In this document: in pieces, positions 1 to 50,261 of the stretch
Numbering within the stretch: the first letter of the stretch is position 1
Layout of the letters: every line of letters begins with the position of its first letter
DNA from: Spiroplasma poulsonii
GTDB lineage: Bacteria > Bacillota_I > Bacilli_A > Mycoplasmatales > Mycoplasmataceae
Assembly (NCBI RefSeq): GCF_009866525.1
Contig: NZ_CM020866.1
Coordinates: 1,888,351-1,938,611 of the forward strand
Length of the DNA: 50,261 bases
Direction of reading: 5' to 3'
Translations under genes and position numbers: made by a program
Notes under the pieces: generated by a model
What the model saw: the letters and a program-made list of their open reading frames with translations, nothing else
What the model was told of the DNA's origin: nothing
Database searches by the model: none

Positions 1-356
1 TATTTTTAATTTAATACAACAGGAATATCAATTAATGTTGATGATAGTGCTTATGCAACATTAGAAAGTTTAAATAGAGAAAATATAATTATACTTTTGG
101 TCAATACATGAATTTTAAACCAGCACAAAAGCAGAAGTTTAAAATAAAACATCGTGTAGAAGCATTTACAATGTTAATAAATACTAATCAATTAAAATGA
201 TTATGAGAAAAATGTCCTGTAAGTAAAACCCAATATGAATTAATTCAATGAGAAGATAAACCCGATGTAAGAGAAGAACGAATGTTAGATTTATATGATG
301 ATACATTTGATAGTGATTTTTTATGCTTTACACTTTGAATTAATACCAATGGTTAA
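1..356 (+). pseudogene. Phage terminase large subunit, C-terminal end, frameshifted
   Basis: The 3' end of a gene that begins off the window. The first ~90 bases read in frame 1 (TGISINVDDSAYATL...). The rest reads in frame 3 from about position 78 and includes W-E-D-K-P-D-V-R-E-E-R-M-L-D-L-Y-D-D-T-F, typical of the end of a terminase nuclease domain, just before portal as in most tailed phages. The two frames do not join, so a one-base indel lies around 75-95. This is either real decay or a sequencing error. The terminase call rests on the motif and gene order. Confidence 0.55.
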
Positions 357-410
357 ACATAATAGTTCATCCGATTATAAATTATGACAACAAAGGGAGT
401 GATTAACTTA

Positions 411-679
411 ATGAAAAAAGATATTTATGTAATACATGATGAACGTGTAATAAATGCAAAAAGACCTTATATGTCTGTTTGTGGACAAGTTAAAAAAGAC
501 TTTGTCAAGAATTAAAAAAAGATAATATAGCAATATGTAAATTAAATTTATATAACGAATATATTAAGAAATATCAAAAAATTAAAGTATGTGTACAAGT
601 TTTATCAAATGAACCAAATTTATTAACAGTAAATATTATTAATTATGCACTTATTTTTAAAATTAAAGGAGCAAAATAA
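411..679 (+). pseudogene. Small phage gene, frameshifted, unknown function
   Basis: Starts at ATG 411 behind an AGGGAG ribosome site and reads 34 residues (MKKDIYVIHDERVINAKRPY...) to a TAA at 513-515. A second frame continues from about 495 (QELKKDNIAICKLNLYNEYI...) to a TAA at 677-679, three bases before the portal gene. Together they would give a protein of about 88 residues. No family recognised. The frameshift lies in the A-rich stretch around 500-520. Confidence 0.5.
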
Positions 680-681
680 CA

Positions 682-2073
682 ATGAATAATACTTTCCCTA
701 GTTTACCAAACTTAAATGATATTAATAGTGTTTTTAAAATTTTATAATTATGATTGAACTATTAATTTAGCAAATATTATTGCTCGCCATCAAATGCGAC
801 TAGTAAATGGTAAAGATATTTTATTTAAGTCTCATCGTAAAGACATTTTAGAAAAATTAAATTGATGATATGAAACTTATAAAATAAAAGAAAAATTAGA
901 TAAAATGAATTAACAGCCAGTTTAATGGGTAAAACTATCTTTGGTTTATTAGAAACTAGTGATGGCAATATTGATTTATGAATTAACCCATTTAACTTTA
1001 CTTCAAGAGTAAGCAAAATAAATGAAATTGAACAAGGTGCTGATATTTGATTAAATTATCATCAATCAGATAGTGGTTTTATTTTAAATTTAATTTGTAC
1101 CAAAGATAAAATAATTATTAAAGGTTGACCAAAAAATAATGAAGTAGTTGTTGGGCAAAGTAAAACACAAATTAAAGATGATGTTAGACCTGTTTTAGTA
1201 CAAGAATTTAAAAACAAATTAGGTATTGTCCCTTTTTGAGAAATGATTAATGAACCTAATCCATTATTTTTATCAACTTCAACAACATTAAACCCATGGC
1301 CTACTATGGCAAATTGTTATAAATTACAATTTGATTTAGAAGATAGTTTTAATATTAAATCAAAAGAAAGATGAGCAAATCGTACTCATTGATATGGGGT
1401 ATTAGATGATGATTTAATGACTGCTTATAACAAAGGCAATAAAAAAGTATTACAAGATGCTTTTGATGATATTTTTATTCAATCAGGTCAATCAGCAGTA
1501 GATGGTCAATTATCACAATCTTTACAAGTAGTACAAGGTACACCAACCTTAGAAACATATACCGAAGACGAAAAATCAATTATTGAACAAGTATATTTAG
1601 CATGTCATTTTTCTAGTCCTTTTGGTGATAAATCAGATAATGACCAAAATAAAACACAATCTTTATTAACTAAAACCAAAGATTTAGAAAAACAAGCATA
1701 TTTACAAGCATATCGTAAACAATATTATACAAAAATATTTGACACTGTTTTAAAATATTATGATTTATGAGATGGTACTTGTGAAAGACCTTATGGTTTT
1801 GATTTTGTTAGTGCTAGTTTAGTAGACCAAATGCGACAAAATGAATTAATTACTACTAGATTAGATAATGGCACAATGGAACCAATAAGAGCAATTACTG
1901 AATATGATAATATTGATGAATTAGAAGCAACTAAATATTTTGAAAAAATAGAAGCATGACAAGATAAAATGCAAGCCAAAGAAATTGAACATAATAATAA
2001 ATTAATGGAATATGATGAAACTGGTAATAATCAAAATGCTTTACAAGGTAGAACAGAAATTAAGGAGAATTAA
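682..2073 (+). pseudogene. Phage portal protein, two frameshifts near the 5' end
   Basis: The encoded protein would be about 460 residues and form the dodecameric portal vertex through which DNA is packaged. It starts at ATG 682. The frame changes near 745 (TAA at 745-747) and again near 912 (TAA at 910-912). From there to TAA 2071-2073 it is open, reading several TGA as Trp. The C-terminal part (residues QSLLTKTKDLEKQAYLQAYR and following) has the charged helical look of portal stem and crown regions. The position after terminase and before capsid genes supports the call. Two indels in the first 230 bases suggest inactivation or poor base calls. Confidence 0.6.
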
Positions 2074-2076
2074 CAA

Positions 2077-5000
2077 ATGAGTGGAATTAACCCAGGGGTT
2101 ATCGAAGAATTAAGAAGACAAGCCCATGATACTTTAATAGATATTAGAGAAAATATACGAGATAACAGACATTGAATGGTATTTCCTTTTAATGTTTATA
2201 GTTCATATATTCCTGATACTGAAACAGGTTGAAAACCTAATAATGCTAAACCAAGTGATTATGGTAGTTATTCACGCATATTTGATAATATGGAAAGTAC
2301 TATTGCACAATGACAAGATAGTTTAAAAATAGTCCAAAAATATAAAGGTGAAGAAATTAATATCTTAACCGTTGATGATTTTAAAAATCAACCTATTAAT
2401 TCCACTATATGAGCCAATAATGAAACACCTTTTGCGATAAAATTAAAAGATGAAAATAATAATGTTTATTGAAAATTAATTGATGGTGAAAACATTTATG
2501 ATGTTAATAAAATGTTAGAATACTTAAAGCAATATAAATTAAGTTATTTTATGAATAATGATAATAAAGCAGATAACTTTTATACAAAAGAAGTTAGGGT
2601 TGGTAAATATTGAGATGCTTATATGATTGATGATAGAAGTTCAATTCAATTTGGTGAAGCCAAATTTGAGCAAGTATTTACACAGCAATCCACCGAAAGA
2701 CAATATACTTTATTAATTTTAGATGAAAATGCTGAGAAATTGAATATTAATGATTATTATAATTTTTATACTGTATTTAATGACCGTGGTTTAAATATTG
2801 GTGGGGGTAATATAAATACTGCACCCCAAGATAGACAATGATTATATCCATCAAATGTTATTAATTATTATTCACCTTATGATGGCAGTTTTTTATGACA
2901 AGAAATTACCTTTTCAAGTATTAATGACAAAATTAGTCATAGTGGTTTATCAGTAAGACAATTTATTCAAACAAGTGCCCCGGGCGAAGGTTATTGTTTT
3001 CCTAAAATAACTTATAATAAAAAACTAAATAAAGGTATTGTTGAATTAGATGAGGTTTTATTAAAAGACCCAGGGGTTAGAGCAATGGCAGTTAAATTTT
3101 ATGGTAATCCGATCTTTTTTGATATGCCCGTTATTGGCCGACCAATTATTAAAGGTCAATTTAATAAAAAAGTTATGAATTCAAGAGATTTATTAATGTA
3201 TAACATGTATCCTTGTCCACCCGACAAAGTTAATAATTATGCATCACCAGAAGTAAGCTGATATAACATTCAAGGTATTCAACCAACAATGATAACTGGT
3301 TATGAAGATTGAAAAAAAGATATGGAAAGTAGATATGATTTTTGAAAACAGAAAAATAGTGAGGGCATTGTTATAACCGACCCCACTACTACATCAGCAA
3401 CTAATTCTAGTGTTGGTAGAAATATTCATAAAGAAGATAAAAACTCTAAATTTTATTGATCTAAAGATTGAAAAATAACACCACCAAACAAAATAAAAGT
3501 AAATGGCGGTAATGTTGATAATATTATTAGTACTCAAGCATCATCATATTTTAGAAGAAAAGATGAATTTGGTAATACAGTAGGTCAAGTTCAAATTGAA
3601 TATAGCAAAATGGGTTCATGTAATGTTTGAGATATTTTAAATATGAATAATTTTATTAATCGCCAAGTTACCGTATTACCTTTAAACTATACTCAAAAAT
3701 TATTATTTAATCCTTTTACGATACCGGGCGGTGTTGGTAAATTCTTAAACTTTATTTCCTTTGGTATTCCATGAGGATGAGTAATTAACAAAAATGAAAA
3801 ATCATGACCTAATTTTCAATGATTAAATGGCTTTATGAGTGCTAATATTTATAGTTTTTATAATGATGCATTTTGATCTGAAAATTCAAAAGGTAAGGGT
3901 TATTTACCCTTTGAAATATTTAGAGAACAAGGAAACGACAAAGTTGGTGCTATATTTGGTGCAAATGCTACTAGTTTTAGTTTTACTACTTTATTAACTG
4001 ATAAATTAAAAGGTCCTGTTTTAACTAAAGATGGTAAACCAACAAGTGAATTAATTTATTCAACTTATAATTTAAAACAATTAAATCAAAAAACTAACCA
4101 AGTTTATTTAATTAATGAAAAAACCAAAGCAATTGAAGCTCAAACACCAGTTAGTGATAGTGAATTAGATAATGATTTAGAATTTTTACAAACACCAGAT
4201 GGTACAAATTGTAGTTATATAATTGATATGTTTTCAATTCAAGCATTATATAAAGGTAATTTTGAAATTATCTTTTATGCGGATAATCCGTTTACTAATA
4301 ATGAAGAAGATTATTTACTATTATCAGTATGAAGCTTTCGTGGAAAAACAAAAAGTACATTAAATAATTATTTACGCGATATGACAACTAATTATAAAAC
4401 TAGTTTTTTACTCCCACATGATTATGAAATACCAACATTTAATTATCCGCAGTGTGTATTACCACCAGTACCATATAACTATGAACCTTATACCAAAGAT
4501 ATTTGAGATGCTAAAACAGGACAAGCATTAAAAACTAAAATTACAGCACCACCACAATGTAAAAAAGCACAACATTATGGTACTACTGTTAATTTATTTT
4601 CTGATGAATTTAATGAAGGTTATTGTGAAATCGAAATTGATTTAAGACAAATTGACCCAACAATTCAAAGTATTAGTAAATTTAAAGATGCTTATAAAAC
4701 AATAGAAATAAGTAATCTTAATAATTTACAAGTTAGGTGTTTTAAACCTGAAATAGAGCGATTTATTAAGTATAGAAATATTAATCTTCTAGGCGGGGCT
4801 AATAGTTGCGATTTTAATAGTGGTTTATTGTCTAATATAACTTTAAAAAGGGAAGGTTTACCACAAAATGATAATATTAATTTTGATAATACTATAACTT
4901 TATATACTGATAATATAACTAATGAAGTTCAAACATTCTCTACTGCTTCTACTACTGGTTTACCAAGTGGAAATTATAAAAGCATTTATTATACAGAAAA

Positions 5001-5280
5001 AAGTGGAGCAGTTAATTTTTTACTTCAAATAACAAAATTATCTGATAATGATGATAATAAAATTAAAGAAACATATTTACAAGCATATTATACTAATGAT
5101 ATGAAATTAAAAATTAGATTATCAAAAGTATTATTTGCTCAGTTATTATTGTTGGCTCAAATTAACTTAAATTATGCAGGTAATAATAAAGATATAACAA
5201 TAGACCTTAATGCTTTGGGTGTATTAAATATCGTAAATAACAGTGATAATCCTATTAAAATCACAATTACACCAAGGTAA
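2077..5280 (+). CDS. Large phage structural protein, 1067 aa, unknown
   Basis: One uninterrupted frame of 1067 residues (TGA = Trp) starting four bases after the portal stop, behind AAGGAG. It is rich in Asn, Tyr, Trp and Gly, has no signal peptide, no clear membrane segment and no coiled coil, and ends in a beta-rich stretch (residues ~920-1067). It lies in the late operon between portal and the scaffold/capsid pair, so a virion role (tail knob, tail spike or head-tail joint) is likely. I do not recognise a family. The long intact frame beside three broken genes indicates selection or only recent damage upstream. Confidence 0.75.
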
Positions 5281-5307
5281 AAGAAAAAGAAATGTAAAAT
5301 CTCTTTT

Positions 5308-5829
5308 TTATTCTCCTTTAACTTTTACATTACCATCGTTATCAACAATTAAATCAGGTTCTTGTTTAGTTAAATTTCAACGATATACTGAATTAATATA
5401 CTTACTTTTACTACTTCAAGGGATTTTTATATTTTCTGAAAAAATATCTGTTGTTAAAACTGGAAAACTAGAATCGATATAAAAGTATAAAGATAATGTA
5501 GAATTATTTAATTTATCAATTTTTTTTTCATTTCCATCTTCTAATTTTGTATCATTATTAAACTTACTTAAATATCATTTTTGATTTTTATCACCACACC
5601 ATACTACATAATAATATTTATCATCAATCTCATTAAATGGCTTTTCTTGTGGTGCTATTCATTCTAAATTATCTTTAATTTCTTGGTTAGTAGTATTTAT
5701 TTTGTTTTCTTCTTTTTCTTTTTTTAATTTTTCTAACCATAATTGATCTTCAGTTTTACACCCAACTAAACTTGTTGTACTTGTTGCTACTAATGAGATT
5801 ACGCCAATTATACTTAATAATCTTTTCGT
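5308..5829 (-). CDS. Prophage cargo lipoprotein with ACG in place of its start codon
   Basis: Encodes 173 residues: a lipoprotein signal peptide (KRLLSIIGVISLVATSTTS) with lipobox LVGC, then a charged, Trp-rich exported domain ending VKVKGE. The codon where Met is expected reads ACG (5827-5829), nine bases after a good AGAGGA ribosome site (5839-5844). The only upstream in-frame ATG is at 5887-5889, inside the preceding gene, and would add 20 hydrophilic residues before the signal. The gene lies 19 bases after the ARP-like gene on the same strand, probably as its operon partner, and runs opposite to the phage late genes. It may be silent, start at ACG, or carry a base error. Confidence 0.6.
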
Positions 5830-5848
5830 TTGATTATTTCCTCTTTTA

Positions 5849-6853
5849 TTATCAATTAAGTGAGTATATTGAAACCGTATAATTAACATTTATATTTCCC
5901 GTATAAGTATTTGTATCAAAAGAATTGATAATTGCATTGTTATTACTAATATTTTCAACGTTAATTTTTGTGATATCTAAATTGCTATACATTTCTTTTA
6001 GTTTATTTTTAATTTGTTGTTTTGTTGGATTAGATAAATTTTCAGTTTTAAATTCACCTAAATTATTATTTGTAATAATTTTATTTAAATTAACATTAGA
6101 TATAAAAGTAACGACTACTTTACCACTTAAAATATCTTTTCTTTTAAAATTTATTTTTGCATTTGCTGTTGTTATATCACTAACTTCAAAATCATTTATA
6201 CTATTTTCTAAATTTTTATTTAATTCTTTTAATTTATTTTTAATTTCTTGTTCTGTTGGTTTATTAACACCATTAATTCTAATTAATCCTAATTCAGTGT
6301 TTTTAAAAACTGATTTTACTGGGTTACTATAATTAACATTTATTTCACCAGTATAAATACTTGTATCATTTGTTTTAACTTTGGCACTATTTAAACTAAT
6401 ATTTGTAATATTAATTTTTGAAATATCTAATTTAGGATTAAAAAGTTTTAAGGATTCTTGAACAATTTGGTTTGGTGTTCATCCACCAATTGAAAAATCT
6501 ATTTCTCCCAAATTAGTATTTGTAATAACTTTGTTTATTGGTACAGATTTATTAACTGTAAAATTAATTGTTTTTTTACCACTAAAACCATCTATAGCGA
6601 TTACGGCACTATTTTCAGTAATTTCTGTAACATTAATTTTATTAATATTTAATTTGGGATTTAATTCCACTACTTTTTCTTTGATTTGTTGTTCTGTTGG
6701 TTTATCAGCTCCATTAGTTTTAAAAATATGATTTTGTGTTTCTCTTTTACCTCTTATAGTTTGTTCTTTTTGATAAGGACTAGCGGCAATTGTTGTTGGT
6801 ACAGCACTTCCACTAATTGTTAATAAGCTTAATAAACTTAGTAATTTTTTCAT
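5849..6853 (-). CDS. Secreted/surface protein with four ~80-aa repeats (ARP-like)
   Basis: 334 residues. The start MKKLLSLLSLLTISG at 6853 follows AAGGAG by ten bases; the longer ATG at 6877 has no ribosome site. The signal peptide ends at about IAAS without a lipobox Cys, so the protein should be secreted or N-terminally released. Four repeats follow, each with a core like KPTEQEIKNKLKELNPKL ... INVxxIT ... Y-T-G-xI-x-V-N-Y. The signal peptide resembles those I remember from spiroplasma adhesion-related proteins. No C-terminal anchor is visible. It is antisense to the phage late genes, fitting a lysogenic-conversion cargo gene. Its promoter contains a TA repeat. Confidence 0.7.
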
Positions 6854-6888
6854 ACTTGTATTTCTCCTTCTTATCAATTTCTATTGAC

Positions 6889-6921
6889 ATTATATATATA
6901 TATATATATATATACAAGCAA
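6889..6921 (-). promoter_or_regulatory. Promoter of the ARP-like gene with (TA)n in the spacer
   Basis: On the minus strand TTGCTT (6916-6921) and TATAAT (6889-6894) frame a spacer of 21 bases made almost wholly of TA repeats. The optimum is about 17, so loss of two TA units would make a strong promoter. Assignment of the -35 box is inference. Confidence 0.5.
6891..6914. repeat. (TA)12 dinucleotide microsatellite
   Basis: Twelve uninterrupted TA units about 40 bases upstream of the ARP-like start codon. Such tracts change length by slipped-strand mispairing. Confidence 0.9.
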
Positions 6922-7032
6922 AATTATGAATTATTTTAAAAATTTTATCTTGAAAAATAGTTCTTATTACACGTTTTAAGGTTTAAATTAGCAACAAAAT
7001 ACATTAAGTTTAGTATTTGTTTATAAAAAGTA

Positions 7033-7060
7033 TTGTATTTATAAACTATGGGTGTATAAT
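7033..7060 (+). promoter_or_regulatory. Promoter for scaffold-capsid genes
   Basis: TTGTAT (7033-7038), 16-base spacer, TATAAT (7055-7060), about 88 bases upstream of the scaffold ATG. It would restart late transcription after the antisense cargo genes. The leader has a short perfect hairpin, CTTGTT-AATCG-AACAAG (7107-7123). Confidence 0.6.
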
Positions 7061-7147
7061 TAAATTATGAGTTTAATCTTTTTCCATAAAAAAGAGTTTA
7101 TGCTGACTTGTTAATCGAACAAGGATAAAAAAAGAGGAGTTTATAAA

Positions 7148-7609
7148 ATGGCGCTTACAAAAGAACAATTAATAGAACAAGGTTTAAGTGAAGAAATTGC
7201 AGAAAATATCTTAAATCAGTTTAATAATGAAGCCAAACAAATTAGAGAAAGTGTGCAAAAACGCGAAGATGTTATATCAAAAGAAGACTTTATTAAATTA
7301 TCTAATGAATTAGATGAATTAAAAGCATTTAAAGATATTCCATCAACTAAAATTGAAGATATTAAAACTAATTTAGATAAAGTTAGTGGTAATTCTTTAA
7401 GTGAAAGAATGCAAACTTTAAAAGAATTAAAACCTGATTTGTTTGTTGAAGAACAACAATCAATTTCACCAACTAATTTTATTAAAGATATGATTGAAAA
7501 TTCAGTTGAAAATAAAAATGATGAAATTGAAATTATTAAAGAAAAAGGAGCATATACTCCTGATGAAATTAAAAAATTAACTGATTATACACTTAAAAAC
7601 CTTAGATAA
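7148..7609 (+). CDS. Probable phage capsid scaffold protein
   Basis: 153 residues, highly charged and almost entirely helical (Glu, Lys, Asp, Asn rich), behind AGAGGAG. It has no membrane segment or enzyme motif. The small size, helical composition and place directly before the capsid gene match scaffolding proteins that guide procapsid assembly and then leave. The C-terminal basic tail (TLKNLR) fits the capsid-binding end seen in other scaffolds. Identification is by position and character rather than sequence family. Confidence 0.6.
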   Translation: MALTKEQLIEQGLSEEIAENILNQFNNEAKQIRESVQKREDVISKEDFIKLSNELDELKAFKDIPSTKIEDIKTNLDKVSGNSLSERMQTLKELKPDLFVEEQQSISPTNFIKDMIENSVENKNDEIEIIKEKGAYTPDEIKKLTDYTLKNLR

Positions 7610-7624
7610 TAAGGGAGTGAAATT

Positions 7625-9025
7625 ATGGCAACAATTAATTTGCCACAAGTACCTTTTACATTGGAAGGTAATACAACAGACCAAAAAGCGTATGTTGATA
7701 TGGTTAATGCTTTATTGCGTGGACCTTTATATAATGAATATGCAAGTATTATGCAATATGCAACTGCAACTGCTGAACAAGTTGCTTGATTATCTAATGC
7801 GGGACAAGCATTATATAATTTAACTCATCGTGTGGTATGACAAAATGATTATTCATTACCAAATGGTGGAGCAACTCAAACAATGGGATTAACAAGAATT
7901 CCAGTTCCTATTGATAAGAGATTTAATTTAAAATTAATGAATGAGGCTTTTGACTTGGCATTAATAGAACAAAATATTAAAAACGGTGTTATTGCTGATG
8001 CTATTTCTAGTGTTGTACAGAATAAATTTGTTAATTTAGAATGTGAATTAATTCAGGCTATTTATGATTATTGTTTAGCAGATGGTCAATATGAAGTAAT
8101 TCCATTTCGTAGTTATACAGCAGAAAATGCTGATGATGCAAATAAGGCATTCTTTACATTAAATGAAACTTTGATTGAATTAACAAATCAAATTAGTAAT
8201 TTATATTTTGGATTGCCAACTGATAAAATGTTTATGGTTTTAGGACGAAGAGCCTATTTAGGATTAACACCTGCTTATTTAAAAGTAATTGGTTCACAAG
8301 CTCAATTAAAAGCAATGGTTAATGGTGAATTATATGAAAATACTGCAATGGGAATTCCAGTATCAAAAAGTTTTCATTTAGAAAAAACATATACAAAAGG
8401 ACAAGTTAACCGTGATAAAGGTTATAATTTTACTAATGTAAATGGTTTAATTATTAATAAACAAGTATGAGCTTATCCAATTAATATGGATACTATTCAA
8501 CAAGTTTTAGATAATGATACTGCTAACCCTAAATGAATTGGTAAAGTACAATATGCAACACCAACTATTTTATATCCTAAAACATGTAAAATTATTTTAG
8601 AAAGACAACCAACAGAAGCAGAAATTAAACAAGCATATGATAACGTAAACAAAACATTTAGAGTACCAGTGGATTATATTATTAATCAACCAAAAAATAA
8701 TCAAACTACACCACCAATACCAAATATTTCTAAAATAGATATTAGTAAAATTAATAAATTAGATGACACAATCGTTAATTTGCCAGACCCCAAAGATGTT
8801 AGTGCTGGATGATTAAAACCTAAATTGCAAGATGTTGTTTTAAAAGCGGTAAAAGCAGTAAATAGTTCTTTAACTGAAAGTGATTTTGATTATTCTATTA
8901 CACCAAAAGGTAGTGACTGACCAATAGATATTACAAATGATAAAATTGTTGAAGTTGTAATTGAAGGTAAAAATAATGCTGTAGGTAAAACAAAAATCAT
9001 TGAAGCATTAATTAAAAACTCTTAA
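7625..9025 (+). CDS. Major capsid protein with spiralin-like C-terminal domain
   Basis: 466 residues, starting 15 bases after the scaffold stop behind a GGGAGTG site. Residues 1 to ~365 look like an all-in-one capsid protein (TLEGNTTDQKAYVDMVNALL near the start; VLGRRAYLGLTP and GIPVSKSFHLEK near residues 200-255). A linker rich in Pro, Gln, Asn and Thr follows. Residues ~380-466 form a separate module: PDPKDVSAGWLKPKLQ, DVVLKAVKAV, ESDFDY, IVEVVIEGKNNAVGKTKI. From memory this parallels the repeated domain of spiralin, the main spiroplasma surface lipoprotein (ANVLKAVQGV, AADFQF, then VxVxI and VG-T). It would be displayed on the capsid exterior. The capsid role is inferred from order, size and the preceding scaffold. 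Confidence 0.75.
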
Positions 9026-9031
9026 TAAAAA

Positions 9032-9949
9032 ATGAATTTATTAATATTACGAATTTTAACATTATTAGCAGAGAATTTAGGTAATAAAACAGTAGTAAAT
9101 AAGTTTGTTAATTTAATTAATAAAGTTAATAAATTTGCTTCATATTATGCAAATCCTTTACAAAAGATTACAAGTAAGATTGAAGATATTTATAAATGAT
9201 TAGATCCATTTACTTATTTAGATTTAATTAAAAAAGGTCATAAAAAAGAAATACAACAAATATTAAGTCAATTAGAAAAAGATAATAATATTAAAAATAG
9301 AGAACAATTTAAAAATGAAAATTATCTAAATACTAATTGACAGCCTTTAAATAGTAGTTGACTTAATAGTGGTATGTTTAATATTACAAATAAATTAACA
9401 TTAACAGGTAATTTAACTATTTTAATATATACAAAAACAGCAAAACATCCGAAATTTTATGGTCCATATGTTTATCCTAGTGTTCCAGTTGAAATTTGAA
9501 AATTATTAAGTAATGCTGTATCTAATGCTGGAACATTGTTTTGGCGTTATTGATTAAGAAAATGATTACCTAGTCATTTAAGAAATTATATTAAAAAACG
9601 ATTGCCAAAAGCATTAAAAGAAAAATATTCCAAAGGAAATACTAAATTAACATTACCAACAGTTCAAAAATTACAACAAATTAAAAAGTTTATTAATAAT
9701 TTAAAAATTGGACATTTTAATTTTAATTTTGCTGGTGAAATTAATAATAAAAAATGGTATCGTGAACGCTGAAGTGATGTTAAAAATATTAAGAATTTAT
9801 ATAAAACACCAGTTAAAAATATGTTTTACAAAACTAATCAAACTATTAAAAAAATTAAGAAAACACAAAAAAATATTAATAGTTATAAGCCACGTAATTT
9901 AAAAAATAAATATCGTAATCAATTAAGGGGTGTTTTATATGGAAAATAA
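9032..9949 (+). CDS. Phage protein with KTSC-like domain
   Basis: 305 residues in the late operon; its stop overlaps the next start by 11 bases, implying translational coupling. The middle (about residues 128-175) has the order of a KTSC domain: a beta pair (LTLTGNLTILIYTKT), then YGPYVYPSVPVEIWKLL, SNAVSNAGTLFWRYWL. In KTSC proteins this is Y-x-Y-x-x-VP-x-x-V-x-x-x-L followed by A-x-S-x-G-x-x-F. The C-terminus is very basic, suggesting nucleic-acid contact. The role in the virion is unknown; a minor head protein or head-completion factor is possible. Confidence 0.55.
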
Positions 9950-10907
9950 TTTAAGTAATTTGTTATTTATAACAGTTGAAGATGTTAAAGCAAGTAAACT
10001 TTGACAACCTATTAATGATAGAAAACAATCTGCTTATAATGATAATTTAATTTATAATGCTATTTTAAAAACTAGTTTATGAATGGATAGATTATCAGGT
10101 GGAACAATTTCCGATAAAATAAATAAAAAAGATTTATTTCCCTGAGTAAAAAAAGATAATACTGGTTTAATTGAATATGATAAATGATTAAGTTATATTC
10201 AATCTGCTTGCTTATTAGCAGTTATAAATTGATATTTACCAAAAGGAGTTAATGATTTAACTGGTAGTGCTTCATTTTCACAAGGTGGTGTAGCATATTC
10301 ACAAACTAATGACCCAGAAGCAAATGAGAATATTACTCGTGATGTTAAAAATGCTTTAAAATTAGCAGGTGAAATAATTGATATTATATCTAGTAAAACA
10401 GTATCTAGACCTTATAATTATAGTTTAGATAATTATGCTCATCCATGAGAAGAAGAATATAAGCATATTAGTAAAAAAACTTTTTATCCAACATTATTAT
10501 TTTGATTAAAAGAACGATTACAAACAGATAATTCAATAAATATTACTTATCCTATTATTAATGATTTTAGTAAAATTGATTATAACGAATATATTAAGAT
10601 TAATATAAATGATTGAGAAGTTGTTGATACAAGTGATTTAGATAATACAAGGTATGATTATCAAATAAATAATTGAGATAAAGAAAATTATAAATATAAT
10701 ATTTGAATTAAAACAAGTAATCAAAATAATTATTATTTAGCAACATACAAAAATTTTATAGGAAAAATAACTATTGGGTCTGCCGAATTAGAAAGTCCTG
10801 TTTCTCATCGTGTAGAATTGGAAGATGACGGAATTATTTCTATATATACTGGTAAATTTGATGGAACAATTTCTTATTTACACATTGAAAGAAGAAAAGA
10901 TAGTTAG
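9939..10907 (+). CDS. Probable head-tail connector or adaptor protein
   Basis: 322 residues, starting inside the end of the preceding gene. The N-terminal half is helical (FITVEDVKASKLWQPINDRK, LWMDRLSGGTI, SYIQSACLLAVINWYLPKG), the pattern of small helical adaptors that bind under the portal. The C-terminal half is beta-rich and ends TISYLHIERRKDS, like a small jelly-roll or attachment domain. No enzyme motif and no signal. Late-operon position supports a structural role. The family is not recognised with certainty. Confidence 0.5.
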
Positions 10908-10922
10908 AAAGGATTTTAATTA

Positions 10923-11528
10923 ATGAAACAAGATAAAACAACTTGATTAAAGGGTGCATTACCTTGAAATTGGTTTAAAAAAGACCCTATTCCAACTTAT
11001 AATTGAACGCATAAAGATATTAGAGAATGAGAAAGAAAATATAAAATTCGTAGTTGAGTAGTTAGTTTTTATACCCTGATATTTTTAGTATTAAATTGTT
11101 GATTAGAATATGGAATGATTAATGCAATTAAAGATAATATTAATTGATATAATTATGGTCAATATTGAGGTAATGGCATTGCAATATTATTAACACCATT
11201 ATTTACACATGGAATTCAAGGTATATTTGTTGTTAGTAGTAAACCAAAAATAGATATGAAAATTGATATACCACGATTAAAAGTTTCTAAACTGGGATTA
11301 GTATTTACAATATTGCCTTTAATTACTTTAATAATTTCTTTAATTATTATTTGAATTGATAAATCAAAATGAAAAAAAGACCATTTAAGACATTGTTTAG
11401 ATTGTCGGATTAATCCGCGTGTTATCCAACCAAGAGTAGCAAAACAATGAAATAATTTAGATGGCATAACAGAAGAAAAATTAAAAAATATACAAAATGA
11501 AAATAACAAAGAATTAAATTTAAAATAG
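10923..11528 (+). CDS. Phage-encoded membrane protein, 201 aa
   Basis: Starts at ATG 10923 behind AAAGGAT. Basic, Trp-rich N-terminus (residues 1-40), a hydrophobic helix (about 41-62), a second segment (ILLTPLFTHGIQGIFVV, ~80-97), a third long one (LVFTILPLITLIISLIIIWI, ~117-136), and a basic cytoplasmic tail with CLDC (Cys-X2-Cys) and a terminal acidic region. In a wall-less host no endolysin is needed; such membrane proteins may serve exit, entry or superinfection exclusion. Function unknown. Confidence 0.65.
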
Positions 11529-11647
11529 ACTATATATAGGGGCGGTTGATATTTTTGGGTGGTTATATAGTTTAATTTATAAATTATTTTGTTCTGAAAG
11601 GATAGATGGCCACTGTTTGAGTAAGAATAAGAAAGGAATTAAAGAAA

Positions 11648-11935
11648 ATGAACGAAACATTAATGATTGCTTTACTTGTATTAGCAGGTGCTGGTGGAAT
11701 GGGTAGTCTTGGTATTCTAGGATTATCTGCTAAAAAAATTAAAAAATATAAAGCAGAAATTAGAGAATTAAGAACTGCTGTTATTGCTCACGAAAAGCAT
11801 TTAAGAGGACCTGATTATGCAACAGAATTAGCATTAAAAACAGGTCAAATTAAAAATGTTAAAAAACAAGTTAAAGTAAATGATAAAAAGCAAGCACAAA
11901 AAGATGCTATTAAAAAATTAACAAATAGTATTTAA
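11648..11935 (+). CDS. Small phage membrane protein, 95 aa, holin-like or minor coat-like
   Basis: One N-terminal membrane helix (LMIALLVLAGAGGMGSLGIL) followed by a long, strongly basic helix (KKIKKYKAEIRELRTAVIAH, later KNVKKQVKVNDKKQAQKDA). The ribosome site is AAAGGAATT. This shape suits a holin-like protein or a small virion/membrane anchor. It is the last gene of the rightward operon, followed by a terminator. A 119-base spacer (11529-11647) before it holds only weak short repeats. Confidence 0.6.
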   Translation: MNETLMIALLVLAGAGGMGSLGILGLSAKKIKKYKAEIRELRTAVIAHEKHLRGPDYATELALKTGQIKNVKKQVKVNDKKQAQKDAIKKLTNSI

Positions 11936-11936
11936 A

Positions 11937-11962
11937 AAAATAACCTTAATTGGTTATTTTTT
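11937..11962. terminator. Bidirectional terminator between late and early phage operons
   Basis: AAATAACC-TTAATT-GGTTATTTTT, right after the 95-aa gene and overlapping the end of the leftward operon. It is placed to stop both converging transcripts. Confidence 0.7.
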
Positions 11963-12163
11963 ATTTTCTAATATTAAGTATAAATTTTTAACTTTACAAA
12001 TAACTAAATTATTTTCTCCATAATTATTTTTATAATATTCTCAGTATTCAGTTGAATTAATATCTACATCTTGTTTATCAATCCCAATTATATATTCACC
12101 ACGAGGGTTTTTACAAGGGCGATTACCTTGTTCAGAGCGATAACATAAAATATAATTATTCAT
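11954..12163 (-). CDS. Small phage protein, 69 aa, unknown
   Basis: Last gene of the leftward early operon. It reads MNNYILCYRSEQGNRPCKNP... with Cys at 7 and 17 and one TGA Trp, ending LENKK at a TAA inside the terminator. The ATG lies inside the end of the upstream gene (overlap of 8 bases), so it is translationally coupled. No family recognised; the two Cys and basic character leave a small metal-binding protein possible. Confidence 0.55.
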
Positions 12164-12344
12164 ATTCTTTATTTCCTTTATCATGTGTTATATAAAAGTT
12201 AATAAGATATTCTATTTTTTGAGAATAAGTACTAAAATTTAATTCATTTCAAACTTTTTCTTCGTTTTTATTTAAGTAAATATTAACATTCCTAATTTTG
12301 CAAGAATAATATTTTCCAGTTTTTTGATTATATGAATGTTTCAT
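12156..12344 (-). CDS. Small phage protein, 62 aa, unknown
   Basis: Reads MKHSYNQKTGKYYSCKIRNV...KGNKEYE. I chose the ATG at 12344, which follows a GAGAG site; an in-frame ATG at 12359 has no ribosome site. The start is five bases after the stop of the RuvC-like gene. Mixed charge, no membrane segment. Its size suggests a ribbon-helix-helix regulator, but no motif proves it. Confidence 0.5.
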
Positions 12345-12348
12345 AATA

Positions 12349-12846
12349 TTAACTCTCATAATTAGCAATAATAATGGCATCTCGTAAATGATTACTTATT
12401 TTTTCATTCTTATATTTTCAACCTTTACCATATTCATAAGTTAAATTAGTATCTTTTTCATATTTTCATACAGAACTATCATTATATTTACTTAAATTTT
12501 CCATATTTTTAACAACTGATTTAGTATGGCGTGGTGATACTCAATTATAACTAACTCAAGTATTTTCAATCGCACCCAGTAATCTTAATAAATCATCTCT
12601 ATCTTTACTAGCATTAGCAGATGTATATAAACAATCTTCAATATTTAATCCTTTTGGAAAAAGTTCACCTTTATTTTTTACATAATAATCTGAATATAAA
12701 TATTCATCTATAAATTCATCAATAAATTTATAATGTTCTTTTCAATATTTACTAGTAAATTCATTTTGTTTAATTAATTTATTATCTTCATATATAACAA
12801 TAGCAGTAGTACCAGTTCCTGATGGGTCAATACCTATTTTTATCAT
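12349..12846 (-). CDS. RuvC-like Holliday junction resolvase
   Basis: 165 residues with an RNase H-like start MIKIGIDPSGTGTTAIVIYE (catalytic Asp7 in the first beta strand), a middle acidic region (FPKGLNIEDCLY) and the RuvC-type end SNHLRDAIIIANYE, whose H-x-x-D-A carries late catalytic residues. It would cut branched DNA made during phage recombination or before packaging. Its ATG overlaps the stop of the ERF gene by one base (TAATG), showing tight coupling. Confidence 0.8.
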
Positions 12847-13520
12847 TATCTTAAAAATCTTTCTTTAAATTGATAATAAAAATCTTCGCTTTGCTTTCTA
12901 ATTATAACTGGTGATAATTTTTCAACATTTAATTCTTCTTTTATTCAATTTTTACCTTTTGAAATAATATCTTGTTCTATTTTTGTATTTGTAATAAAAT
13001 CTTTAATATTATTAAAATGCTCTTCCCTCATTCAATTTGGATTTAAATTATTAATTTGTTGCTTATTAGTTTCTTTAATAACTTGATTACTATTTTCTTT
13101 ACTTATTTCAGTACTATCGGGGTCTAATTCATCAGTTGCTATACCAAATGTCTTACACAATCAATAACGAGCACCATAAGTTAAAGCACTACCAACTGCT
13201 TTTGCAATATCTGAATTTTGTGCTGATAAAATAATTCCTAATTCTAATTTTTCATCATTTTTATAAAGTGTTAATAAACCTTTTGAATAATAATTTACCA
13301 TTTTATCATTATTAATAAATGTTGGTTCACCAACTGCTTGAATTGTATAAGTTATATGATGCTCTTTTAATTGTGGTTTTAAAGTTTGATATAAATCACT
13401 TTCAGTAAAATAATTATATTTATTAAAATCATTCCTTGCATTTTTACCAACAAAAATATTTATATTAGATTGAATTTCACCAATACTTGCTATTAATGTT
13501 TTTTTAGTTTCTTGTTGCAT
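12846..13520 (-). CDS. ERF-family single-strand annealing recombinase
   Basis: 224 residues. The N-terminal ~130 residues match the ERF pattern: KNARNDFNKYNYFTESDLYQ, TLKPQLKEHHITYT, and the hallmark VGSALTYGARYWLCKTFGI followed by acidic TDELDPD. ERF proteins form rings and anneal complementary single strands. The C-terminal ~90 residues are charged linker and a basic tail. It sits beside SSB, a nuclease and a resolvase, a complete phage annealing module. The start ATG at 13520 overlaps the upstream gene and has GAGAGGAA upstream. Confidence 0.85.
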
Positions 13521-14163
13521 TTTCTCATTCCTCTCTTTCTTGTCATATTAAAATGGCATCTTTAATTTTTTCTAAATCTTGTTTAGTAATATTAACTTTT
13601 TCTTTAATTACTATTTTTAATTTTGGATTTATAATTATCATTAATATTTTTTTACTATCTATACAAAAATCTTTTTCTAATAAATAATAAAGTTTTAATT
13701 GTCAAATATAGCGTTTAATATCAGTTTCTTCATTAGAACTAGTAATTTTTCAATCACATATTATATATTCATTATCAATAGTTATTCCAATAAAATCAGT
13801 TGTACCACACATTAAAGGGTTATAAAGTGTTTTTTCAGTTTCATAATGTTTAAATTTAATATCTTTAAAAGTTTCTTGATATAATTTTGTAAAATTATTA
13901 AAAATATCTTTGTGTGATTTTATATCACAATTAATAAACTCAATTAATTCATCATCAAAATTATTTTTTATTCAACAATCAATCATATTATGTAAACATA
14001 TTCCACGAGTTTGTGCTAATTTTAAAATATTCTCATCAATTTGCGAATAATCTTTTGGCACTAAAATATTAACAATTTGACTAACACTAGGGATTAAAAT
14101 ACTATATTTATGTAATTCATTATTATAAATATATAATGGTTTAATCTCACATGATGGCATCAT
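13504..14163 (-). CDS. PD-(D/E)XK nuclease, RecB/Cas4-like
   Basis: 219 residues. The core motifs are visible: GTTDFIGITIDNEYIICDWKI gives the first Asp and the D-W-K of motif D-(x)n-(D/E)-x-K, and QLKLYYL gives the Q-x-x-x-Y helix typical of RecB-like nucleases. It probably makes the single-stranded ends used by the neighbouring ERF protein. The end overlaps the ERF start by 17 bases and the start lies within the end of ssb. I prefer ATG 14163, with GGGTGA just upstream, over GTG 14169. Confidence 0.75.
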
Positions 14164-14563
14164 TATCACCCATTAAATCTTTAATATCTTCTGAACTATA
14201 ATTTATTTGTTCTTCTGCAATTATTTCTGGTGTTTTTTTAGATAATAATATATCTCTTTTTAAATCATTATTTGTATGTAAAAATTCATAATTAGAAACT
14301 TGTACTATTCATTCAGTTTTATTATCTTTATTTTTAAAAGATTGTAAAACACCAGTAACTGCTATTTGACTACCTTTTTGACAATATTTTTGTAAAACAG
14401 TTGCTTGTTTATTTCAAACTTGACAAGATATAAAATCAGTTTCTTTTTGAGTAGAATAAGGTCTTATTACTGCTAATTGAAATATGGTATATTCTTTACC
14501 ATTTTGTGTTTTTTTAATTTCAATATCTTTAGTTGTTCTACCAATTCCAATAAATTTATTCAT
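14141..14563 (-). CDS. ssb: Phage single-stranded DNA-binding protein
   Basis: 140 residues with one OB fold: MNKFIGIGRTTKDIE (strand 1), TIFQLAVIRPY, ETDFISCQVWNKQA, QKGSQIAVTGVLQS, WIVQVSNYEFL. The tail is acidic and ends DNDAIMWD, differing from the usual DDDLPF tip, so partner binding may be phage-specific. It would coat single strands during phage replication and recombination. The end overlaps the downstream nuclease start, and AGAGGAAA precedes the ATG. Confidence 0.85.
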
Positions 14564-14565
14564 TA

Positions 14566-14703
14566 TTAAATTTCCTCTAATTCCATTTCTTCAATTAAAT
14601 TATCAATATATTCATAAGCACTATCTTCTGAATGACATTCTTCTAATGCTAAATTAAATAAATCATCTTCAGTATAAACATAACCATTTTCATCTTTTCA
14701 CAT
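14566..14703 (-). CDS. Small acidic phage protein, 45 aa
   Basis: Reads MWKDENGYVYTEDDLFNLAL...EEMELEEI with an extreme acidic composition (many Glu and Asp). It ends two bases before ssb. A GTG at 14712 is an alternative start. The upstream gene ends at 14705, so the two genes are packed. Function unknown; acidic small early proteins of phages sometimes mimic DNA or inhibit host proteins, which is only a speculation here. Confidence 0.5.
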
Positions 14704-14704
14704 A

Positions 14705-14878
14705 TTATTCACATCCTTGTCATTTAATATTGTTATCTTCTAAATCAATAATTGTTGTTTCTCATCCTTGTTTATTTTCAACATTACCAGTAATTTTTGC
14801 TTCTTCTAATGTATAAAATAATAAAGTTTTAAAATCACCATATTTACTTTTCATTACTAATAAATATCTTTTATTCAT
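14705..14878 (-). CDS. First gene of phage early operon, 57 aa, unknown
   Basis: Reads MNKRYLLVMKSKYGDFKTLL...WETTIIDLEDNNIKWQGCE, behind a perfect AGGAGG at the right spacing. A compact alpha/beta protein, no known family. It is the first gene after the hairpin-rich leader and is followed with no gap by the 45-aa gene and ssb. The strong ribosome site suggests high early expression. Confidence 0.6.
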
Positions 14879-14899
14879 AATTTAATTCCTCCTATTTTT

Positions 14900-14947
14900 A
14901 ACTCGCTGGCACTCACTCCAAAGTGAAAGTGCCAAAGCGAGAGTTAG
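14900..14947 (-). promoter_or_regulatory. Long hairpin in the leader of the early operon
   Basis: AACTCGCTGGCACTCACT pairs, with small bulges, with AGTGAAAGTGCC and AAAGCGAGAGTT around a CCAA loop. It lies between the likely promoter (TATATA near 14950) and the first early gene. It could be an attenuator, an operator or a processing site. Confidence 0.55.
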
Positions 14948-14980
14948 TTATATAATTAAGTATTTATCTATTTATTTACT

Positions 14981-15014
14981 ACGCCATCCGCTTCACTACG
15001 GGTGAGCGGTGGCG
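14981..15014. repeat. GC-rich hairpin
   Basis: CGCCA-T-CCGCT-T-CAC, loop TACGG, GTG-AGCGG-TGGCG: a 13-pair stem with two single-base bulges, unusually G/C-rich for this genome. Confidence 0.75.
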
Positions 15015-15408
15015 GTATGTTGTTAGTTAAATAATCGACAGTTGTTTTTTTCTTTTGGAGCCAGAGAGTTTTCTCTCTCTTCATCCGCACCATTTCAGGT
15101 CAAAACGTTCAGTTTTTAAAATAAATCTACTTGCACCTTGAAGAGCCTAATGCTGACTTTGTGGTTTTTAAACCGCTGTCACTTCTAAGAAGTAATATCT
15201 ATCGCAAATTTATTTATAAAGTCATTATCTCTATGGTTTATTGTCGTTTGATATTAACCTTGGACTTATCACGACTATCGCTTGTTAAAGCGTCTATTAT
15301 TTCCGGACTAATTACCGCTGGGCTAGACCGCCTCCTGTGGAATAAAAACACTTAGTTATTTAAAATAACCGTTCCACACTGCATTAAGTTGTAATTTTAA
15401 TAAAATAA

Positions 15409-15587
15409 TTAACTGAAACAGAGAAAGGACAACACCTTAAATTAGGAGAAAAAACAGAAGACATTTTGTAAAGATTTCTAAGATATTTAATAAATGTGTA
15501 ACATAACTTAAAGAAGGTATCAAAAAGTTGTGATAAAAGTTTCTATTTTAAGAACTTAAGATGTTGCCCTTTCTCTGAATCAATTAA
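15409..15587. repeat. 179-bp element bounded by 32-bp inverted repeats
   Basis: Left arm 15409-15440 and right arm 15556-15587 are inverted copies with about five mismatches (core CAGAGAAAGG(A/G)CAACA(C/T)CTTAA). The 115 bases between have no ORF. It could be a MITE-like insertion or encode one very long RNA hairpin. It does not share ends with the IS5 or IS3 elements here. Confidence 0.7.
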
Positions 15588-15610
15588 TAATTTTGGTTTT
15601 ACAAATAAAA

Positions 15611-15632
15611 AAACCATTTTAGTAAATGGTTT
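15611..15632. terminator. Hairpin AAACCATTT-TAGT-AAATGGTTT
   Basis: Nine-pair stem with a tetraloop next to T-rich DNA, at the prophage-host border. It could end transcripts from either side. Confidence 0.5.
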
Positions 15633-15744
15633 AATTTATTATTCTTATTCAATTTCTATGTATTTTTTAAAACCCTTCTTTTTCCCATGCGACCATTATA
15701 ATGGATTTTTTATATTTTTAAATATATTTATTATTATATTAAAA

Positions 15745-49833: not shown

Positions 49834-49910
49834 GTTTTTCTCCTCCAAAAGATTTAATACAAAATTGAATAAAAGAAACATGATCTTAACAAATTAAAAA
49901 TAAATTAAGA

Positions 49911-49974
49911 CCTATAGTTAATTAATTTAGGGTTAACTGTAGAGACACCAGACCATATTTCTAGTATATATAGG
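49911..49974 (-). promoter_or_regulatory. Purine riboswitch aptamer upstream of guaB
   Basis: A 64-base aptamer on the guaB strand. P1 pairs CCTATA (49969-49974) with TATAGG (49911-49916). P2 pairs ACTAGA (49960-49965) with TCTGGT (49947-49952) around the seven-base loop AATATGG (49953-49959). J2/3 is GTCTCTAC (49939-49946). P3 has loop ACCCTAAAT (49925-49933). J3/1 has ACTAT with C at 49917, the position called C74 in the B. subtilis xpt aptamer, which predicts guanine-type specificity. The expression platform (49834-49910) has TCTTAA/TTAAGA pairing but no strong terminator, so translational control is possible. Confidence 0.85.
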
Positions 49975-50261
49975 AAAATATATTATAGTATTAAATTATA
50001 TTGATTATAACAAAAAATTAGAAAGGAACCAACAAAATCTACATTTAAATTGTTTTCCACAAAGAAAAATTTTAAATCACAAAAATTGTTAATAATGTGG
50101 AAAAAGATATAATTATTCAATAAAAATAAGCGTTTTATAAAAAAATAAAAAAATATTATATGTGGAAAACCCTTAATATTTCTTAAATTAAATTATTTTT
50201 TGCGACTTTTCCACATCTTTTATTTATAATTAATAAGATAAAAACTAATGGAGATGAAATA
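49975..50261. other. Chromosomal origin region oriC (left part)
   Basis: Four identical DnaA boxes TTTTCCACA: 50053-50061 (+), 50096-50104 (-), 50161-50169 (-) and 50207-50215 (+). An almost pure A/T segment at 50105-50160 would be the unwinding element. There is no gene; dnaA is expected just past the right edge. The nearby rpmH-rnpA-yidC-khpB-mnmE series supports the origin. The guaB promoter (TATAAT-like near 49986) lies at its left side. Confidence 0.85.

Follow-up and report, generated by a model that had tools for sequence, protein, structure and literature searches.

The early control region of a Spiroplasma phage contains a conserved, pseudoknotted structured element which, judging from comparison of its natural copies, probably acts as RNA. 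Because more than 100 copies keep their base pairs, including those that cross one another, by means of paired mutations, the element probably represents a new family of structured phage RNAs, putatively helping to control the early genes. It lies within the window (the whole stretch of 50,261 nucleotides analysed, from Spiroplasma poulsonii), where a sequence-only reading had picked out positions 14900-15345 as a GC-rich, hairpin-dense and non-coding stretch upstream of a phage early operon. That description was confirmed by our analysis.

Reading frames in the window are long solely under genetic code 4, and the relatives of the region are Spiroplasma. The first 15.7 kb of the window, including the region itself, is a prophage of the tailed, transposase-bearing type that shares its gene order with Spiroplasma phage MaM-2019a clone NSRO-P1 and is 99.9% identical to it over that length, i.e. 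it belongs to the MaM-2019a group and is the same prophage as NSRO-P1. As cited in PMC12453411, Ramirez, Leavitt, Gill and Mateos (2023) obtained contigs of this kind, ~19 kb in length, by assembling the DNA of phage-like particles. At the region, the MaM-2019a records (OL689226, OL689227 and OL689230) carry hypothetical proteins alone as annotation, without an RNA feature. The early operon begins at 14878 and runs on the minus strand, the late genes are on the plus strand, and the GC-rich region is located ~350-800 bp inward of the right end of the prophage (Table 1). The stretch would thus serve a tailed, transposable prophage as the control region that separates its early operon from its right end. 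Among the annotated genes of these phages there is no recognisable repressor, and no recognised replication initiator, nickase or origin-binding gene. Two prophages of the MaM-2019a group stand head to tail here, occupying window positions 1-15700 and the 24 kb to the left (G000:C1:1868000-1904050). The prophage in the window is the second of the pair and is missing ~2.4 kb, a loss that takes the small terminase along with portions of both the large terminase and the transposase.

The GC content of 14900-15345 is 38.1%, whereas the window averages 26.6% (sd 4.7); segments of the same 446-nt length that are equally GC-rich make up 0.9% of the total and 0.07% of the phage part. At 15301-15340, 24 of the 40 bases are G or C, exactly as had been counted beforehand, a value reached by 0.04% of 40-mers. 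The predicted fold of 14900-15345 beats dinucleotide shuffles on both strands (z of -5.8 on the plus strand and -4.0 on the minus strand), while 33 comparison stretches gave a mean z of -0.7 (sd 1.2-1.5), although a single one had a minus-strand value of -5.76. The hairpins are real and lie at 14902-14941, 14982-15014, ~15064-15075, 15089-15100, 15163-15174, 15182-15192, 15279-15292 and 15337-15377. The core by itself had a mean z of ~-0.4, most copies being no stabler than shuffles, and an attempt to choose its strand from per-copy folding energy failed, as this mean was the same on both strands.

The region is non-coding. The plus-strand frame at 15131-15355, whose codons had already been called atypical, is open in 21 of 66 copies and interrupted by stops or shifts in the other 45, and between copies its length differs by amounts that break the frame; it is therefore not a gene. 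The minus-strand frame at 14968-15093 has stops or shifts in 47 of the 66. A protein-coding reading was rejected on these grounds, both frames being broken in most copies and the length differences not being multiples of three. Codon-level conservation of a protein was looked for and was absent, with no conserved frame in the 66 copies.

Copies were collected with BLAST and two covariance models, built on 15200-15296 and 15060-15153. At E values up to 0.01, the first model gave 107 matches, spread over 8 of the 14 congeneric genomes with 1-28 in each, and zero matches in 46 genomes from other genera of the family. The second model, run against 248 genomes of the order, gave a single weak match outside the genus (E 0.004), which was taken as chance, as was a lone motif match in Zixiibacteriota. 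Among viral contigs the core motif matched one contig, and searches made via SSB or terminase returned distant SSB carriers alone or nothing. In the genome from which the window is taken, the core stands before 17 of 18 RuvC-containing early operons, in each of these 17 cases at a distance of 2.5-3 kb from RuvC and on the opposite strand, and the arrangement of core and early genes was identical wherever context was inspected. The flanks of the region partly match S. citri plasmids (e.g. NZ_CP047430.1:5430-6595), and the core has no match there.

Table 1. Features of the prophage control region in window positions; for the core helices the strand given is the likelier one.
Feature	Positions	Strand	Details
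Early operon	11954-14878	-	57-aa, 48-aa, SSB, RecB-like nuclease, ERF, RuvC, two small genes (operon order)
GC-rich hairpin	14902-14941	-	directly upstream of the ribosome-binding site of the first early gene
GC-rich hairpin	14982-15014		between early leader and core; missing from some copies
Core	15060-15298	+ (likelier strand)	~240 nt with optional insert, ~190 nt without
Helix Pa	15077-15082/15140-15145	+	7 double compensatory events; 97.7% paired
Hairpin within Pa	15089-15091/15098-15100	+	possible extension 15086-15088/15105-15107
Long-range helix Pl	15119-15126/15208-15215	+	AT-rich, 8-12 bp depending on copy
Optional hairpin insert	15154-15198	+	many copies cleanly without it
Helix Pb	15219-15223/15263-15267	+	4 double events
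Helix Pc	15226-15229/15250-15253	+	2 double events; TATC/GATA, CATC/GATG
Helix Pk	15243-15247/15271-15275	+	3 double events; GTCGT/ACGAC, GTGGT/ACCAC
Hairpin Pd	15279-15283/15288-15292	+	15 double events; replaced in the other tail type
Exchangeable GC-rich tail	15293-15336		two alternative sequence types across copies
Terminal hairpin/pseudoknot	15337-15392		15337-15342/15372-15377; 15355-15359/15365-15369; 15350-15354/15385-15389
42-nt inverted repeat	15402-15594		83% complementary, 109 nt separating arms; conserved beyond core
Prophage right end	15696-15700		NSRO-P1 match ends; same junction copied at left end

Comparison of the copies revealed that the element is modular. Next to the early operon come two GC-rich hairpins, then the core, which may hold the optional insert, then the GC-rich tail that is exchanged among copies, and lastly the terminal hairpin. 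The extent given in the sequence-only reading has to be enlarged: the element continues beyond 15345 to ~15395 and is followed by the inverted repeat. This repeat adjoins the core in phages with differing transposases. A terminator-like hairpin is found 3' of the core on the plus strand in copies from genomes G001, G002 and G005, and in the close copies L077 and L079 a hairpin of this kind 3' of the core is oppositely oriented, as if a palindrome had been inverted. In two copies from G011 (L054 and L055) the core carries a ~1.2 kb insertion at the same site, between the matches to window positions 15222 and 15224.

Two helices make the core pseudoknotted. The long-range helix Pl crosses Pa, and Pk is a pseudoknot because its first arm lies in the Pc loop and its second arm past Pb. 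The arms of Pl vary together between copies (AAATAAATTT/AAATTTATTT, AATTAAATTT/AAATTTAATT and AATTAAATCTAC/GTAGATTTAATT), apart from mismatched arms in a few copies of recombinant look. Matched variants were likewise seen in Pa (CTCTTC/GAAGAG, TCCTTC/GAAGGA and ATCTTC/GAAGAT), in Pb (AAGTC/GACTT, AAGTG/CACTT, AAGTT/AACTT and GTGTC/GACAC) and, outside the core, in the hairpin at 14902-14941 (GGCACT/AGTGCC, GGAACT/AGTTCC and GGCGCT/AGCGCC). The optional insert pairs at 15154-15157/15178-15181, 15163-15166/15171-15174 and 15182-15185/15189-15192, and shows covariation from TGAC/GTCA to TGGC/GCCA.

A covariation analysis of homologs had been proposed as a check, with unconserved stems counting against the sequence-only reading; the stems do covary. 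When changes were placed on a tree of 68 copies, the core helices showed 32 double compensatory Watson-Crick changes, compared with 0-4 in controls where the register was slid, and 93% of helix cells were occupied by Watson-Crick pairs, compared with 14-35% in the slid registers; in this analysis the tree is approximate, the phages recombine and the alignments were fitted to the covariance models. When 36 copies were aligned with ordinary MAFFT, i.e. without fitting to the structure, there were changes on both sides at 15 pairs (92 cells), while shuffles gave 8.4 pairs (28.7 cells) and slid partners 3-6 pairs (7-19 cells). RNAalifold gave little signal on alignments that mixed module types, and covariation was read for each module instead. 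The comparison of natural copies thus shows that the helices, including the two pseudoknotted ones, are maintained by compensatory mutations; compensatory changes beyond the controls and the absence of a conserved frame are both features of structured non-coding RNAs in general.

The sequence-only reading had offered three options for the stretch, namely a replication origin, a packaging signal or a structured RNA. A structured element is borne out by the compensatory changes, the pseudoknots and the lack of a frame. A packaging signal, or a portion of a transposition end, would be in keeping with a position less than 800 bp from the end of the prophage, but we consider it extremely improbable: the terminase genes are distant, at the opposite end of the phage; the transposase, which is also at the opposite end, differs in type among the phages (UPF0236 or IS30), and the core is common to both types, whose ends should differ; and pseudoknots kept by covariation would be unexpected for a DNA site bound by protein.

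A G-U pair that is tolerated on one strand appears as A-C on the opposite strand. In the core, wobble events leaned towards the plus strand by 30 to 14 when two unclear helices were omitted, and by 38 to 32 when all helices were counted. This imbalance weakly favours a plus-strand core RNA that is divergent from the early genes, and disfavours a minus-strand core, although the near-even count over all helices would also be compatible with the other strand or with single-stranded DNA. Outside the core, wobble counts (plus to minus) were about even for the hairpin at 14902-14941 (15:13) and leaned minus for the hairpin at 14982-15014 (12:20) and for the terminal module at 15337-15392; the inverted repeat also leaned minus, with 100 A-C cells against 4 G-T, mostly fixed differences. 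No clear promoter was present upstream of the core across every copy.

These counts would fit, for example, a minus-strand hairpin in the early leader combined with a core RNA that is read divergently from it, on the plus strand. The hairpin at 14902-14941 would, when read on the minus strand, be a stem-loop in the 5' UTR, and it, perhaps with the hairpin at 14982-15014, would form part of the early mRNA leader. The structured RNA itself would comprise the ~190-240 nt core and accessory hairpins; transcription of the core would run on the plus strand, diverge from that of the early operon and stop at a terminator near 15395. It may then control the early operon, with its recombination and replication functions, or exclude related phages, whether in trans or by opposing the early leader as its counter-transcript; no target for it was found. 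We put the case for such a putative plus-strand pseudoknotted non-coding RNA, with one or other of these roles, at a little short of an even chance. Control of the early operon or of immunity is proposed because of the position, the exchange of modules and the lack of a recognised repressor.

Alternatively, the whole region, read on the minus strand, could be the leader of the early mRNA and act in cis on the polymerase or ribosome that makes it, for example by antitermination or attenuation. In phage HK022, put RNA works in this way; its sites, a pair of short hairpins carried by the early mRNA, resemble the present region in being structured RNA upstream of an early phage operon, but the present fold is larger. 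In favour of such a leader, the core is always upstream of the early genes on the minus strand; in many copies a minus-strand gene, h79, lies on its far side, the wobble of the outer modules leans minus, and sites resembling intrinsic terminators are nearby. However, the core leans the opposite way and no minus-strand promoter conserved among the copies was found, and we regard the leader as rather unlikely.

Because the wobble asymmetry is modest, folded single-stranded DNA also has to be weighed, either as an origin for replication or strand priming, in a phage that lacks an obvious replication initiator, or as a recombination substrate. The near equality of G-T and A-C events over all core helices is what DNA predicts, 14884-15620 folds strongly as DNA (z of -6.8), the early genes that have an annotation serve recombination and include no recognised initiator, and alternative modules at one site would also be compatible with types of origin. 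On the other hand, two functional pseudoknots would be unusual in DNA, the unambiguous core helices favour plus-strand wobble, and a nickase or origin-binding gene was not recognised. A role as DNA therefore appears quite unlikely to us.

At the place of the core, the phages of four genomes (G001, G002, G005 and G013) have an unrelated conserved non-coding element of ~300 nt, some copies of which share the flanking hairpins and the 3' hairpin of the core. An example is L270:3830-4130 (G001:C1:39629-39929), and there are ~24 further places in the same four genomes. This replacement element matched no known RNA family, and its single-sequence fold is not unusual. The presence of interchangeable modules at one control locus suggests alternative specificities. 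Short immunity RNAs that pair with a leader are found in temperate phages, i.e. the CI RNA of P4 and c4 of P1. The plus-strand core RNA would resemble these in lying beside the early operon of a temperate phage and possibly replacing a protein repressor, and its exchangeable modules would fit changes of specificity; it differs in being a large pseudoknotted fold with no pairing target found. The analogy is drawn from the position and the absence of a recognised repressor. Taken further, it would mean a temperate phage group in which a large pseudoknotted RNA, rather than a protein repressor, governs immunity to superinfection as well as the early operon, and in which two or more unrelated RNA 'alleles' are exchanged at the locus as immunity types, an idea that we think unlikely as it stands.

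The core belongs to no known RNA family in Rfam 15, where the region was unmatched by any entry, including ROOL, GOLLD, tmRNA, RNase P and the group I and II introns; scan filters were permissive (up to E 5), and the sole matches were chance ones far below threshold. Permissive scans of the region together with divergent copies gave chance or terminator matches. The Mycoplasma sRNA MCS4 (RF02713) reached at best 34.3 bits in relatives, mainly through its poly-U terminator hairpin, with 56 bits needed for a full-length match, and had no match above the cut-off in the genome of the window. No tRNA or tmRNA is present within the window, which has a purine riboswitch at 49895-49993 on the minus strand, upstream of a 497-aa gene. 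Literature searches, which did not extend to the original particle paper, where an earlier mention is possible, returned no report of the pseudoknotted RNA.

ROOL and GOLLD are non-coding RNAs of phages and prophages that contain multiple pseudoknots and have no known function (PMC12286853). Like them, the core is non-coding, phage-encoded, multiply pseudoknotted and recognised by covariation. By analogy it could be an ornate RNA acting in trans, with a lytic role beyond early control (as a scaffold, a container or a decoy for host proteins), and its size class, pseudoknots, phage location and modular variation do resemble those of ROOL and GOLLD (PMC12286853). Against this, the core is shorter, GOLLD in particular being longer, and matches neither family by sequence or covariance model; ROOL and GOLLD occur near tRNA islands, whereas the core is in an early control region, in a window lacking tRNA genes, and has been found so far in one genus. 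We consider such a role highly unlikely.

Few large structured phage RNAs have been described, and most are without a known function. The core is present in more than 100 natural copies with good covariation, keeps a constant position ahead of the early genes, has a counterpart that can take its place, and comes from phages whose particles have been isolated, which makes the role of large phage RNAs directly testable. It also bears on the coexistence of dozens of prophages in symbiotic and plant-associated Spiroplasma.
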